26,194 nucleotides of DNA from a virus. This document shows positions 3,183 to 7,204 of this stretch, one piece after another. The stretch lies in the IMG/VR virus record IMGVR_UViG_3300023192_001899, positions 1 through 26,194 of that record; one strand, 5' to 3'. Numbering within the stretch: position 1 is the first letter of the stretch; the number at the start of each line of letters is the position of its first letter. The position numbers and the translations under genes are program-made. The notes under the pieces were generated by a model. It ran no database searches. It saw nothing but the letters and a program-made list of their open reading frames with translations, and was not told the DNA's origin.

Positions 3183-3216
3183 AAAGACCCTTGCTTCGGC
3201 GAGGGTCTTTTTTTTT
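3183..3216 (+). terminator. Rho-independent terminator after gp32 (UUCG tetraloop)
   Basis: A 12-bp stem (3183-3194 pairs with 3199-3210, one G-T wobble) closes a C(TTCG)G tetraloop and is followed by a T-run to 3216. It ends the gp33-gp32 unit and overlaps the stop of the convergent gene. On the minus strand no T-run follows the stem, so it looks one-directional. Confidence 0.92.
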
Positions 3217-5557
3217 ATTCTAAACTAAGATTTACCTCACCTACATTAGCACGATTTCTGTCATAGGTCCAATCTTCATCATTAAGAACTGATTCTGTAA
3301 TAACAGTTGAGTTTGACCTAATGTCTTGGAAGTTTTGGTATATTGACATGGCTTGGTCTCTTCCGTACATGCGATCTAGTTCAAACATACTAAGTCTAGC
3401 ATTATCGCCTAACGCCCTTATGGCGTCCACATTACCTCGCGCGGCTACTTTTGCTATGTGAGTACTTGGAGATAGGCTTGATTCAAATATATTCCAACTT
3501 CCACCACTTTGCATCATTTTATGAATCGTTTGTCGTCTGTGTTGAACAACTCCCTTTTTATTAATACCGGCCAAAGGAATCAGAGTTACACCAGCATCTG
3601 TATCTGTTGGGTGGAAATCGCCTGATCGTAATCTTTTTATTATTTGGATAATTCGGTCATCATCAACTGCGGTTTTATTAGTATTTGCTTCATCTTCGGC
3701 AATAGCATATGCGGTTTGATTTATTAATCTATTCACAGCAGAAGCAATTGCAACTGGCTTTGGTATATTAGTCGGTGGTTGGTCGTGATGCCAAACTCTA
3801 TATTTGTCCAAACTTGGATTTTCGGCTTTTTCATAGAGAAGACGCATAAGTTGGCCAGAATAAAATAATCTTCTTCCAAGAGTTGTTTGTAAAGAGTGTC
3901 CTCCGGCCATTGATACTAAATCTTTTTGCCTGTTTCTTCTCATGGCAGGCAATATAATGTTTTGCCTCTCCCATTGTTTTGAATCATCTACGCCAATTAT
4001 CGCTTCTATTCCTTGAGCAATTTCTTCAGTAGTTCCTATATCTTGTCCCACCAATGAATTCAACCATGCAAGGCCTTCTACTGCTCTGGCGGCACCATAC
4101 AGTCCCGCTGCTTTATCAAAGGATGCATCACCTATAGTTCCAGTTCCTTCACCAGCGGCCATTTGTTCATATTTTTCTGTCATTCCCATCAAAACATCAG
4201 TGCCTGCAATTATTGGTGCGAATATCATTGCTTCGGCTCGAAGCGCGCCCCCCAAACCACCTTTCGATATAGTAAATGCTCTTCTCAACCATCCAGGCCG
4301 TACGGCGTTTGCCAGTTTTCTCTTTTTCATTGCAAGTTTGAGAGCATCATCAACGGTTGACCCTGCTGGCATATGTGTTGGTAAACCTATATTTTTTAAA
4401 TATGCAGCCTGATTTTTTATAAATCCGCCGCTGGCACTTCTAACACTAAGTTTGCCAGCGGAACTCATAGTTACTCTAGTTCCATCTGCACCTACATGTA
4501 ATATATGTGTCATCGCCGCGGCAGTTGATTTCGCAGGTTGGATTGCCCCTACTAAATTTCTACCTCTACCGGCGCTACCGCCAGTTATCCGAGAACCTAA
4601 TGTACCAGTTGGTATTGGAGCCATGTGGGCCGTACCTCGCCCAAGTCCTAACATTCTTGCGAAGAATTGGAATATTTTGCCTCTAGCACCTGAATGCATT
4701 AATGTTGCAGTTATTCCAGTTGTCACAGCCGCAACCGTGAATGGATTAGTTGCAATATCAATTGCAGTATCTACCGCTCCACCATCGCCATCAGGTTTGC
4801 CATCACCATCTTTGTCTGTACCGCCGACGCCGCCACCTAAACCTCTACCATTTCTTCCTAGAAGTGTTAAAATTTGATGAAGCAAACTAATTACATCATC
4901 TTCTTTATGTCTTACTTCCGTTTCACGGATTTTTGCTTCTCTTTCTTCTTCTTTTGCTTCACTTTCAAACCCAGCGCCTCCACCATCGCCATCAGTGACA
5001 GCATCTCGTTGGGCTTCTGCTATTTCTAATCGTAAATCTGCAACACTTCTTTTTGCCTGATTTCCTCCTCCTGGTGCATTCAACATCCATTTGCCAAATT
5101 TGTTTCCAAATATACCAGTGAATAAACTTTCACCAATTGCTCCACCACCACCACCTAAACCAGCCGCGGTTCCTCTTGCTTTTCTTGCAGCCCCTTGAAC
5201 ATTTGCGGCGAGTTCTCCCAGATACGCTTGTTCTTCTGGTGTATCTGCCTCTGCGGCAACAATTGCTATATCTTTCGCCCGTTGTTCTATTTCTTTTAAT
5301 CTGTCTTTACTTGCATCGCTGCCTTCTTCTACAAGTTTGACTAATTCGGTTCGAAGATGTCTAGTAGTTACACCTAATTTGTTATCTTCTCTATCAAACA
5401 ATTCAGTTGCAAGTGCATTTGCCTCTCCAACTTCTTTGATGATATCTCTAATAGATTCACGACTCAATTCCTCAACAGTCATAGTCGCGCGGACTCCCTT
5501 TTTGGCTTCTTCAACCTTTTCTTGGAGTCTTCTAACTGTTTCGTCTATTGTTGCCAT
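3215..5557 (-). CDS. Tail tape-measure protein candidate (gp29 position)
   Basis: A 780-aa protein with a helical, charged N-terminus (residues 1-110, likely coiled coil, many Glu, Lys and Arg). Gly-rich linkers follow (about 125-145 and 240-265, the latter with a DKDGDGKPDGDGG run resembling a calcium-binding loop). Hydrophobic, Ala/Gly-rich segments around 270-300 and 430-500 come next, and then a helical C-terminal half. This pattern fits tape-measure proteins. Position supports it: tape-measure genes usually follow the tail assembly chaperone pair, and here it starts 2 nt after the stop of the gp51-like -1 frame. T4 gp29 is 590 aa. No Shine-Dalgarno is visible before the ATG, so it is probably translated by coupling. 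I cannot see a decisive gp29 motif; another internal virion protein is the alternative. Confidence 0.6.
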   Translation of the reverse strand: MATIDETVRRLQEKVEEAKKGVRATMTVEELSRESIRDIIKEVGEANALATELFDREDNKLGVTTRHLRTELVKLVEEGSDASKDRLKEIEQRAKDIAIVAAEADTPEEQAYLGELAANVQGAARKARGTAAGLGGGGGAIGESLFTGIFGNKFGKWMLNAPGGGNQAKRSVADLRLEIAEAQRDAVTDGDGGGAGFESEAKEEEREAKIRETEVRHKEDDVISLLHQILTLLGRNGRGLGGGVGGTDKDGDGKPDGDGGAVDTAIDIATNPFTVAAVTTGITATLMHSGARGKIFQFFARMLGLGRGTAHMAPIPTGTLGSRITGGSAGRGRNLVGAIQPAKSTAAAMTHILHVGADGTRVTMSSAGKLSVRSASGGFIKNQAAYLKNIGLPTHMPAGSTVDDALKLAMKKRKLANAVRPGWLRRAFTISKGGLGGALRAEAMIFAPIIAGTDVLMGMTEKYEQMAAGEGTGTIGDASFDKAAGLYGAARAVEGLAWLNSLVGQDIGTTEEIAQGIEAIIGVDDSKQWERQNIILPAMRRNRQKDLVSMAGGHSLQTTLGRRLFYSGQLMRLLYEKAENPSLDKYRVWHHDQPPTNIPKPVAIASAVNRLINQTAYAIAEDEANTNKTAVDDDRIIQIIKRLRSGDFHPTDTDAGVTLIPLAGINKKGVVQHRRQTIHKMMQSGGSWNIFESSLSPSTHIAKVAARGNVDAIRALGDNARLSMFELDRMYGRDQAMSIYQNFQDIRSNSTVITESVLNDEDWTYDRNRANVGEVNLSLE

Positions 5558-5559
5558 GT

Positions 5560-5745
5560 TTACATACTACTTTTTTGAATTTTTTCGTTTTCTTCTTTCA
5601 CATGTTGTGTTAAAAGTGTAACATATATTTCTCTTTCCCAAGGTATCATATTTTCTAAGTCTTCTAATGAATAATTATGATGTTGCATCAATTGAAAATT
5701 TAACTTATAAAAAGTTGTTAATGCCTCATGACAGAGGCTTAGAGA
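5560..5745 (-). CDS. gp51: gp51-like segment, read as a -1 frameshift extension of gp26
   Basis: The -1 frame relative to gp26 is open for 61 codons after the slippery site, ending with TAA at 5560-5562. Its product contains LNFQLMQHHNYSLEDLENM, then IPWEREIYVTLLTQHVKEEN, which resembles the gp51 (baseplate hub assembly) family of marine T4-like phages and, more broadly, the T part of tail chaperone G-T proteins. It has no usable start near its beginning: the first ATG in frame is the M of QLMQHH, with no Shine-Dalgarno, and would remove the first 24 residues. Translation is therefore most simply explained by frameshifting at 5745-5751, giving a gp26-gp51 fusion of about 293 aa. Too short for most gene callers and easily missed. 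Confidence 0.72.
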   Translation of the reverse strand, partial: SLSLCHEALTTFYKLNFQLMQHHNYSLEDLENMIPWEREIYVTLLTQHVKEENEKIQKSSM

Positions 5746-5751
5746 AAAAAA
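5723..5751 (-). promoter_or_regulatory. Programmed -1 ribosomal frameshift signal in gp26
   Basis: On the minus strand, T_TTT_TTT (5751-5745) lies exactly in the gp26 reading frame, as GAT TTT TTT CTC TAA. A 6-nt spacer (CTCTAA, containing the gp26 stop) separates it from a 5-bp GC-rich hairpin, GCCTC (5738-5734) with GAGGC (5727-5723) and a 6-nt loop. Heptamer, spacer length and hairpin match the known -1 frameshift design. Slippage gives TCT CTA AGC and enters the open gp51-like frame. Confidence 0.78.
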
Positions 5752-6440
5752 TCTCGAATACCCTCCAGCGTCATTTTATTTTCTTCACCACATTTGACAC
5801 AAGTAAAATCAACATCATGCGAAAGTTTTGGCATTGTTTCAAAAAATTCTAATATTTTATCAAATTGTGAATGCGTTAGTCCATCAAGAAATTCTTCTAA
5901 TTCCTCTATTGTATATTCAGTTGATTTATAAACTTTATCACCATCATAAATGGTATCAATACATTCGGCTGCAAATTTTAAATTATCAGGTGAATGTATT
6001 TGATTTGTAAATACACTCTCCATTCCAAGAGTAGGATATTTCATCACCACTCCTTTATTTTCACCAAAATCTATTTTATTTGTATGATTTTTATCTTTCG
6101 TTACTTTAAGTTTAGTTAAATCAACTTCTACTGTGTTTGTTTCACTACATGCGTAACATGTCAGAGCGGGCTCTGCCATTTCTCCAACAGATTTTGCTCG
6201 GATATTCAAAAACAAATAACACATATCTGAAAGTGGTATTGTCTCTGGTTTTACAACACCAAATGTACATTCTCTAATAATATCTTTCATTGCATTTATA
6301 ATATTATCGATTTCTTCACCTTCGAATGCTATCAATAATGCTTTTTCTTCTCGTACCAAAAAAGGTCTAAAGAATATCTTCTCTTTACTCGAAGGTATTG
6401 TTAATTTATATTTTGGTAATGTTAGTGTAGGTAATGTCAT
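5739..6440 (-). CDS. gp26: Baseplate hub assembly protein gp26 (tail assembly chaperone-like)
   Basis: A 233-aa protein of the T4 gp26 type (T4 gp26 is 208 aa), which helps assemble the baseplate hub. N-terminal signature: LPKYKLTIPSSKEKIFFRPF with LVREEKALLIA. Two CxxC pairs, C95/C98 and C214/C217, could bind one zinc ion together and are a recurrent trait of these proteins in marine T4-like phages. Start: ATG at 6440 with GGAG 7 nt upstream. Near the 3' end the frame crosses a T7 slippery run two codons before its stop; part of the ribosomes should shift to -1 and add a 61-aa gp51-like tail. It sits immediately upstream of the tape-measure candidate, the usual place for tail chaperones. Confidence 0.82.
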   Translation of the reverse strand: MTLPTLTLPKYKLTIPSSKEKIFFRPFLVREEKALLIAFEGEEIDNIINAMKDIIRECTFGVVKPETIPLSDMCYLFLNIRAKSVGEMAEPALTCYACSETNTVEVDLTKLKVTKDKNHTNKIDFGENKGVVMKYPTLGMESVFTNQIHSPDNLKFAAECIDTIYDGDKVYKSTEYTIEELEEFLDGLTHSQFDKILEFFETMPKLSHDVDFTCVKCGEENKMTLEGIRDFFL

Positions 6441-6458
6441 AATATTTCTCCATTATGT

Positions 6459-6902
6459 TTATATGAGGTCGCCCAATGCGTCCCCTATCAAGTCGCTGAC
6501 TTGACCGGTCATTTGTGCAGGGTCTAAACCCCAAGGAAGACGAACTACTCGGCCACCTATTGAAGTTGGTATCATTGGAATGGGAGAATCTCTGCCACCA
6601 TGAGGCATAATTGCTCTTTCTAATCTTCCAACAAGGTCTAATTTACCAAGAATTGATTCAAGGAATCCCGGAGCGTCTGGTTTTTCTGACCTCCACTTTC
6701 GGAAAGAAAATCCTATACGCTGTTTATTAATTTCTGCACCTTTTTCATCGCCATATTCTATTGGACCTATTGTTTTTGGCCATGCATCTTCTAAAATAAT
6801 TCGATGAATTGGAATGTCTGATTCGTCTAATTGTGTAATTTCAATTTCTGATTTATAGTTATCTAAATAACCAAAGTTTGGGTTGATGGACTTATAATAA
6901 AT
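6459..6902 (-). CDS. Tail-tube-like baseplate protein, C-terminal part (different frame)
   Basis: This frame is open from just after a TGA (6905-6903) to TAA at 6461-6459, 147 residues, with no plausible early start. It begins IYYKSINPNFGYLDNYKSEI and continues EITQLDESDIPIHRIILEDAWP, the middle and C-terminal part of the tail-tube fold shared by T4 gp19, gp48 and gp54. It is thus the continuation of the 113-aa reading frame just upstream. It ends with a Gly/Arg/Pro-rich segment and a small hydrophobic helix (QVSDLIGDALGDLI). The gp26 start is 19 nt further on. The only late ATG in frame (6608) would leave a 49-aa peptide, so independent translation is unlikely. Confidence 0.68.
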   Translation of the reverse strand: MYYKSINPNFGYLDNYKSEIEITQLDESDIPIHRIILEDAWPKTIGPIEYGDEKGAEINKQRIGFSFRKWRSEKPDAPGFLESILGKLDLVGRLERAIMPHGGRDSPIPMIPTSIGGRVVRLPWGLDPAQMTGQVSDLIGDALGDLI

Positions 6903-7204
6903 TCACTTTGCCATTGTTCAAATACAATTCTTTCCTTAAAATCTTTTGCAAGTTTAAAAGTTACATCCATGTCTCCAGAATATGAAACTTCATAAGGCAT
7001 TTCATTAATAGGACCATGCACTTTGATATCTTGAGTTGAAATATTTCTACCAGGCATGGTGCAAGTTTCACATGATACACATAATCGAAGATTAGATAAC
7101 GCATCCAAATTAGAAAATGCTATTTCATATTTGTGTGGGTATGAACTACCCCAATGTGATATACTGGCGACCAGACTGTTAATTGTGGTGGGAACTTTTG
7201 ACAT
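6863..7204 (-). CDS. Tail-tube-like baseplate protein, N-terminal part (gp54/gp19-like; frame broken)
   Basis: The 113-aa frame carries the tube-fold N-terminal half: KYEIAFSNLDALSNLRLCVS, then CETCTMPGRNIS, a PYEVSYSGDMDVTFKL strand and FEQWQSEF. Normally this family continues into a YYDDY-type strand; here that continuation (INPNFGYLDNY) is in the -1 frame, so the present stop at 6863 truncates the fold. The start overlaps the upstream stop as TAATG. One additional T in the TTT run at 6901-6899 (minus strand) would join the halves into about 247 residues. It is probably the baseplate tube initiator or a hub tube protein. Either a real frameshift or a one-base sequence error explains the split; no canonical heptamer is in the right frame. 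Confidence 0.68.
   Translation of the reverse strand: MSKVPTTINSLVASISHWGSSYPHKYEIAFSNLDALSNLRLCVSCETCTMPGRNISTQDIKVHGPINEMPYEVSYSGDMDVTFKLAKDFKERIVFEQWQSEFIISPSTQTLVI

Follow-up and report, generated by a model that had tools for sequence, protein, structure and literature searches.

A selected slippery heptamer at the end of gene 26 points to programmed -1 frameshifting that would yield a short and a long tail assembly chaperone in T4-like phages

The window analyzed here is the whole 26,194-nucleotide stretch of IMG/VR virus record IMGVR_UViG_3300023192_001899. A gp26 gene on its minus strand overlaps a second frame encoding gp51-like sequence, followed by a long open reading frame (ORF). 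The features at this locus are as follows.

5739..6440, minus strand: gp26, the 0-frame product of 233 aa and a candidate for the short tail assembly chaperone (TAC) form, TAC-N (PF12322 T4_baseplate, E 3e-60; phrog_150, E 2e-64; AF2 pLDDT 89.9)
5761..5766, minus strand: Shine-Dalgarno-like (SD-like) GGAGGG, a proposed 5' stimulator that precedes the heptamer by 9 nt (read in the sequence; anti-SD pairing z about -12 over 104 non-redundant loci)
5745..5751, minus strand: slippery heptamer T_TTT_TTT (sequence; T_TTT_TTN in 176 of 185 related loci)
5739..5741, minus strand: gp26 0-frame stop TAA (sequence)
5723..5738, minus strand: hairpin GCCTC-TGTCAT-GAGGC, starting 6 nt past the heptamer, a possible 3' stimulator (sequence, folding)
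5560..5745, minus strand: -1 frame gp51 extension of 61 codons plus stop, candidate TAC-C (phrog_634, E 2e-27; pN/pS 0.13 before any start codon)
3215..5557, minus strand: 780-aa ORF, candidate tape measure protein (from position and size only)

The gp26 ORF (6440-5739) terminates in GAT TTT TTT CTC TAA, which agrees base for base with the reading in the original prediction. After a slip on the in-frame T_TTT_TTT, the -1 frame stays open for 61 codons, to a TAA at 5562-5560, giving a conceptual gp26-gp51 fusion of 232 + 61 = 293 aa; both the open stretch and the fusion length are as first proposed. The -1 peptide had also been called gp51-like, and it does match phrog_634, annotated as "baseplate hub assembly catalyst" (E 2e-27, or E 6e-29 when the whole window record is compared with the family). 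In phrog_150, the gp26 family, gp26 covers columns 5-232 and the -1 peptide covers columns 228-282, the last 55, directly after gp26. The predicted hairpin with its 6-nt loop is likewise present: a 6-nt spacer (CTCTAA) separates the heptamer from arms GCCTC (5738-5734) and GAGGC (5727-5723) around the loop TGTCAT, with a local folding energy of -9.4 kcal/mol.

The gp51-frame stop lies two bases before the 780-aa ORF (5557-3215). This ORF had no PHROG or Pfam match and no family match as a tape measure protein; a long ORF also follows gp51, directly or past small ORFs, in S-PM2, S-SM1, HTVC008M, and others. The gp26 protein (5739-6440) carries two Cys-x-x-Cys pairs (CYAC and CVKC) that resemble a zinc site and occur in many, not all, relatives. 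Upstream, the gene for a gp54-like tail-tube initiator (6459-7204, minus strand) is spread over two frames in the window, with a junction near 6870-6880. Alignment to the closest relative, L002 (80% DNA identity, one open frame), places a single 1-base gap there, probably a sequencing or assembly error.

Relatives gathered from IMG/VR and isolate genomes provided 185 loci with a complete gp26 end. T_TTT_TTN was found at this end in 176 of them (145 TTTTTTC, 30 TTTTTTT, and 1 TTTTTTG), and in 174 of these 176 the -1 frame matched a gp51 HMM. The nine heptamer-free loci comprise five Straboviridae, three Ackermannviridae, and one damaged ORF. In the five Straboviridae (T4, Acinetobacter phage Konradin, 44RR, an RB49-like phage, and Erwinia phage Cronus), 51 is a separate gene; for 44RR, the top-scoring ORF taken at this step was gp51, and its gp26 likewise ends without Phe-Phe. 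The counterpart site in T4 gp26 reads GAG TTC TTT. Judged by their gene sequences, these five phages are a natural negative control.

Three loci from Ackermannviridae or similar phages (L017, L019, and L020) have a gp26-type gene with a -1 overlapping gp51-like ORF and lack a classical heptamer; L017 and L020 have TAATG, and L019, from a Klebsiella phage, lacks an early start as well as the heptamer. At L125, near position 2700, a stop breaks the gp26 ORF ahead of its usual end and gp51 continues, which resembles a sequencing error or decay.

The heptamer is also conserved beyond what its amino acids require. In a non-redundant set of 104 loci (<80% gp26 identity), picked for the heptamer and with nine of the 185 loci outside it, the pattern xxT TTT was present at Phe-Phe in 104 of 104. 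From the codon usage of each locus, we would expect a T-ending preceding codon in ~68 and TTT as the first Phe codon in ~77 (joint log10 P for all 104, -35). Only 8 of the 92 remaining Phe-Phe pairs within the same gp26 genes fit this pattern, which persists at the slip site even in phages of Rhizobium, Stenotrophomonas, and Variovorax with 52-55% GC. Therefore, the heptamer is a selected feature and not a chance one, and its conservation among relatives, put forward as a check in the original prediction, is borne out both in number and at the codon level.

Conservation of this extent bears on two other ways of obtaining such an overlap. One is that sequencing error or gene decay has split a single gp26-gp51 gene, and the window does contain a likely 1-base indel elsewhere, in its tail-tube-initiator gene. 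However, the same frame relation and heptamer recur in >170 records, finished isolate genomes included, and in L002 the neighboring gene is intact and the gp26/gp51 shift is still there. For the family as a whole, we reject this explanation because of the conservation and give it next to no credence. The other is transcriptional slippage on the T run, producing mRNAs of altered length that are then read normally. Such slippage is known for A/T runs (PMC3711429), and the window has seven consecutive Ts, but runs of 8-9 or more are normally needed (PMC3711429, PMC5009743), and 145 of the 176 loci have T6C, with only six Ts. In addition, the selected SD-like element described below, at the spacing found in dnaX, fits ribosomes and not RNA polymerase. 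We therefore reject transcriptional slippage on run length and consider it very improbable.

In the window, the first TTG and ATG of the extension fall at residues 18 and 19, inside the conserved gp51 domain, so a separate start would yield only a truncated gp51; the earlier statement that gp51 lacks a start holds for the residues before 18 and not for those that follow. Among relatives, the expected absence of a start is found in part: 92 of the 176 loci (51 of the 104 representatives), window included, have a -1 ORF free of ATG, GTG, and TTG up to residue 18 past FF, and the rest have possible starts. The start-free stretch has the consensus ..LSH.SLENYY.TNFAL, a pN/pS of 0.13, and 1588, 949, and 3455 differences at the first, second, and third codon positions. 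This stretch is thus under strong purifying selection, which argues that it is translated in the -1 frame, and the shift is the only visible entry to it.

We weighed these data against the possibility that gp51 is initiated independently, or through stop-restart coupling at the gp26 stop, as a protein in its own right and that the heptamer simply follows from the conserved Phe-Phe. At the overlap, TAATG, TGATG, or ATG is present in several isolates (KVP40-like R10Z, Stenotrophomonas BUCT608, Rhizobium Y68, and S-PM2), 15 of the 104 representatives have an ATG among the first few codons past the slip, gp51 has its own CDS in GenBank records, and restart can make use of SD sequences close to gene ends (PMC5009743). 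Against this, residues 1 to 17 remain conserved in the start-free loci, Phe-Phe alone does not explain xxT TTT throughout the non-redundant set, and the SD-like element precedes the earliest possible start by ~20 nt, a distance too great for initiation. We therefore regard a purely separate gp51 as very unlikely, although separate initiation may add to the gp51 supply in loci with an ATG near the stop.

A TAATG or TGATG restart accompanies the heptamer in L016 (KVP40-like), L015 (Stenotrophomonas), and L014 (Rhizobium), and in these loci, to judge from the sequences, gp51 could arise both as a fusion and as a free protein. In GenBank, the gp51 CDS begins at the overlap starts or at internal Met codons, as in HTVC008M (45 aa) and C48C1 (34 aa). 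With internal starts, the conserved first part of gp51 is lost, as seen in HTVC008M (L011, 3711-3848), Mosig (L012, 3720-3854), and C48C1 (L013, 3738-3842).

Two kinds of putative stimulatory element accompany the heptamer at the proposed frameshift site. Upstream, the relatives carry a GGAGG-like sequence at -15 to -10 relative to the heptamer (9-10 nt upstream), a conserved element that the original prediction had overlooked. Across the 104 loci, predicted pairing to the 16S 3' end exceeded that of synonymous-codon shuffles with the same codon usage and reached its maximum at this element (z about -12), where the GG is partly fixed by an invariant glycine and only codon choice is informative. 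Codon choice is indeed skewed: the Glu codon of the element is GAG in 37 loci (12.4 expected), and the Leu codon before it is CTG in 20 (5.4 expected). L024 has Gly GGA in place of the Glu codon and nevertheless retains AGGAGG.

On the downstream side, folding of the first 50 nt is more stable than that of the shuffles (mean z, -0.98; s.e., 0.13; six control positions, -0.42 to +0.17). Hairpins of at least 5 bp at a spacing of 4-10 nt were found in 12 of the 104 loci, the window among them, compared with 1.2 expected from shuffles, a tenfold excess. Conservation of the window hairpin itself had been proposed as a further check, and here the prediction failed: the hairpin is common to the window and L002 only, being absent from the next relative, L024, and from L008. 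We therefore reject this particular hairpin as a conserved stimulator, with downstream structure enriched in general. Both the SD-like element and the downstream structure may act as stimulators of slippage. On balance, we favor, with somewhat better than even confidence, a model in which a dnaX-like three-part signal drives the T4-like TAC frameshift, with the codon-selected SD-like stimulator 9-10 nt upstream as the most consistent of its helpers, with conservation across marine T4-like phages, and with the T4 group, which lacks the heptamer, encoding the two forms as separate genes.

Taken together, the conserved and codon-selected heptamer and the purifying selection on a -1 frame with no usable start uphold the original reading of the locus. 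We consider it highly probable (roughly 0.93) that this T4-like (Kyanoviridae-related) phage uses programmed -1 ribosomal frameshifting to produce a tail assembly chaperone in two forms. Most ribosomes would stop at the gp26 stop and release the 233-aa TAC-N. A minority would slip back one base on T_TTT_TTT, with two Phe-tRNAs in the P and A sites, and would read 61 more codons to produce the 293-aa gp26-gp51 fusion, TAC-NC. As in Escherichia coli dnaX, two elements would probably aid the slip: the SD-like sequence that precedes it by 9 nt, through pairing with 16S rRNA, and RNA structure immediately on the downstream side. TAC-N and TAC-NC would then act on the candidate tape measure protein of the adjacent gene as lambda gpG and gpGT do, and T4 itself would obtain the same two products from two genes, 26 and 51. 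That slippage occurs, and how efficiently, like the stimulator roles and the chaperone function, is what we infer from these patterns.

T4 gp51 is required for assembly and is absent from the particle (PMC3004832). At 249 aa, it aligns over its full length to phrog_150 (columns 13-280 of 282, E 3e-84), and T4 gp26 aligns to columns 14-235 of the same family. A profile for which conceptual frameshift fusions were the sole input matches Konradin gp51 collinearly across the junction (hmm 67-282), and hhalign relates T4-type gp26 to T4-type gp51 at 99.5% and window-type gp26 to T4-type gp51 at 97.3%. In AF2 models, gp26 and T4-type gp51 have the same order of secondary-structure elements, with three C-terminal helices added in gp51, and the T4-type gp51 model retrieves gp26 proteins in BFVD. 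By these alignments and models, T4 gp51 is a gp26-like domain plus a gp51 domain, and T4 therefore has two genes in place of a frameshift. This supports the earlier proposal that gp26 and gp51 are the equivalents of G and G-T. In an unrooted tree, gp26 and gp51 of the T4 group, encoded there by separate genes, fall into one clade apiece, and the frameshift loci cluster. Frameshifting first, followed by duplication, is the simpler reading of this unrooted tree, though not a proved one.

Like lambda gpG/gpGT, the locus would encode a short protein and a rarer -1 fusion just upstream of a long tape-measure-like gene, with a C-terminal domain read only past the shift. The lambda heptamer, G_GGA_AAG, differs from the T_TTT_TTT found here, and the lambda system is not known to have an SD-like stimulator. 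A further difference is that gp26 has ~230 aa and Cys pairs and matches the fold of no solved structure. Searching the PDB with gp26, by sequence and by fold, returned no TAC, and the fold search gave no match at E <= 0.001, in a database that may contain no comparable TAC structure. Common descent with lambda gpG is thus no more than a possibility. By sequence, the window proteins belong to the T4-like TAC families (PF12322, phrog_150, and phrog_634).

The abstract of a study by Vladimirov and colleagues reportedly describes the frameshift as conserved in several T4-like groups, with T4 using genes 26 and 51. This study identified the TAC genes of T4-like phages (Vladimirov, Gautam and Davidson 2022, Virology 566:9-15). 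It is cited in PRFect for T4-like phages with a short gene and a long fusion gene and in the phage Adele paper for poly-T -1 signals in T4-like TAC-N genes (PMC12846349). As far as these accounts of it go, the view of gp26/gp51 as the G/G-T equivalents of T4-like phages is prior art, with the same gene families, arrangement, and poly-T slip site as in the window and with short and long forms as separate genes in the T4 group, and we see no difference of principle. Our analysis adds metagenomic counts, a test at the codon level, a survey of start codons, and the SD-like stimulator, some of which that paper may already contain; the stimulator and the scale on which conservation was tested may be new.

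The arrangement of an SD-like element ~10 nt upstream, a heptamer, and a downstream stem-loop is also that of E. coli dnaX (PMC3711429). In dnaX, in contrast, the heptamer is A_AAA_AAG and slippage gives a shorter product, not a longer one. The TAC loci of Vandenendeviridae and Andersonviridae such as phage Adele likewise have a poly-T -1 frameshift near the TAC-N 3' end and a downstream piece annotated as a separate gene, although their motif is GTTTTT and they belong to another phage group (PMC12846349).

G-T frameshifting was described in a 2016 review as conserved in long-tailed phages "except T4" (PMC5009743). The relatives of T4 indicate that its lineage departs from this only in the way the pair is encoded. 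In database records of these phages, gp51 is mostly a separate or truncated gene, an annotation that should be corrected, and the SD-like stimulator offers a directly testable detail. Judging from their sequences, gp26 and gp51 in very common marine phages would be two forms of one chaperone, rather than a component of the hub and an assembly "catalyst" with no relation to it.
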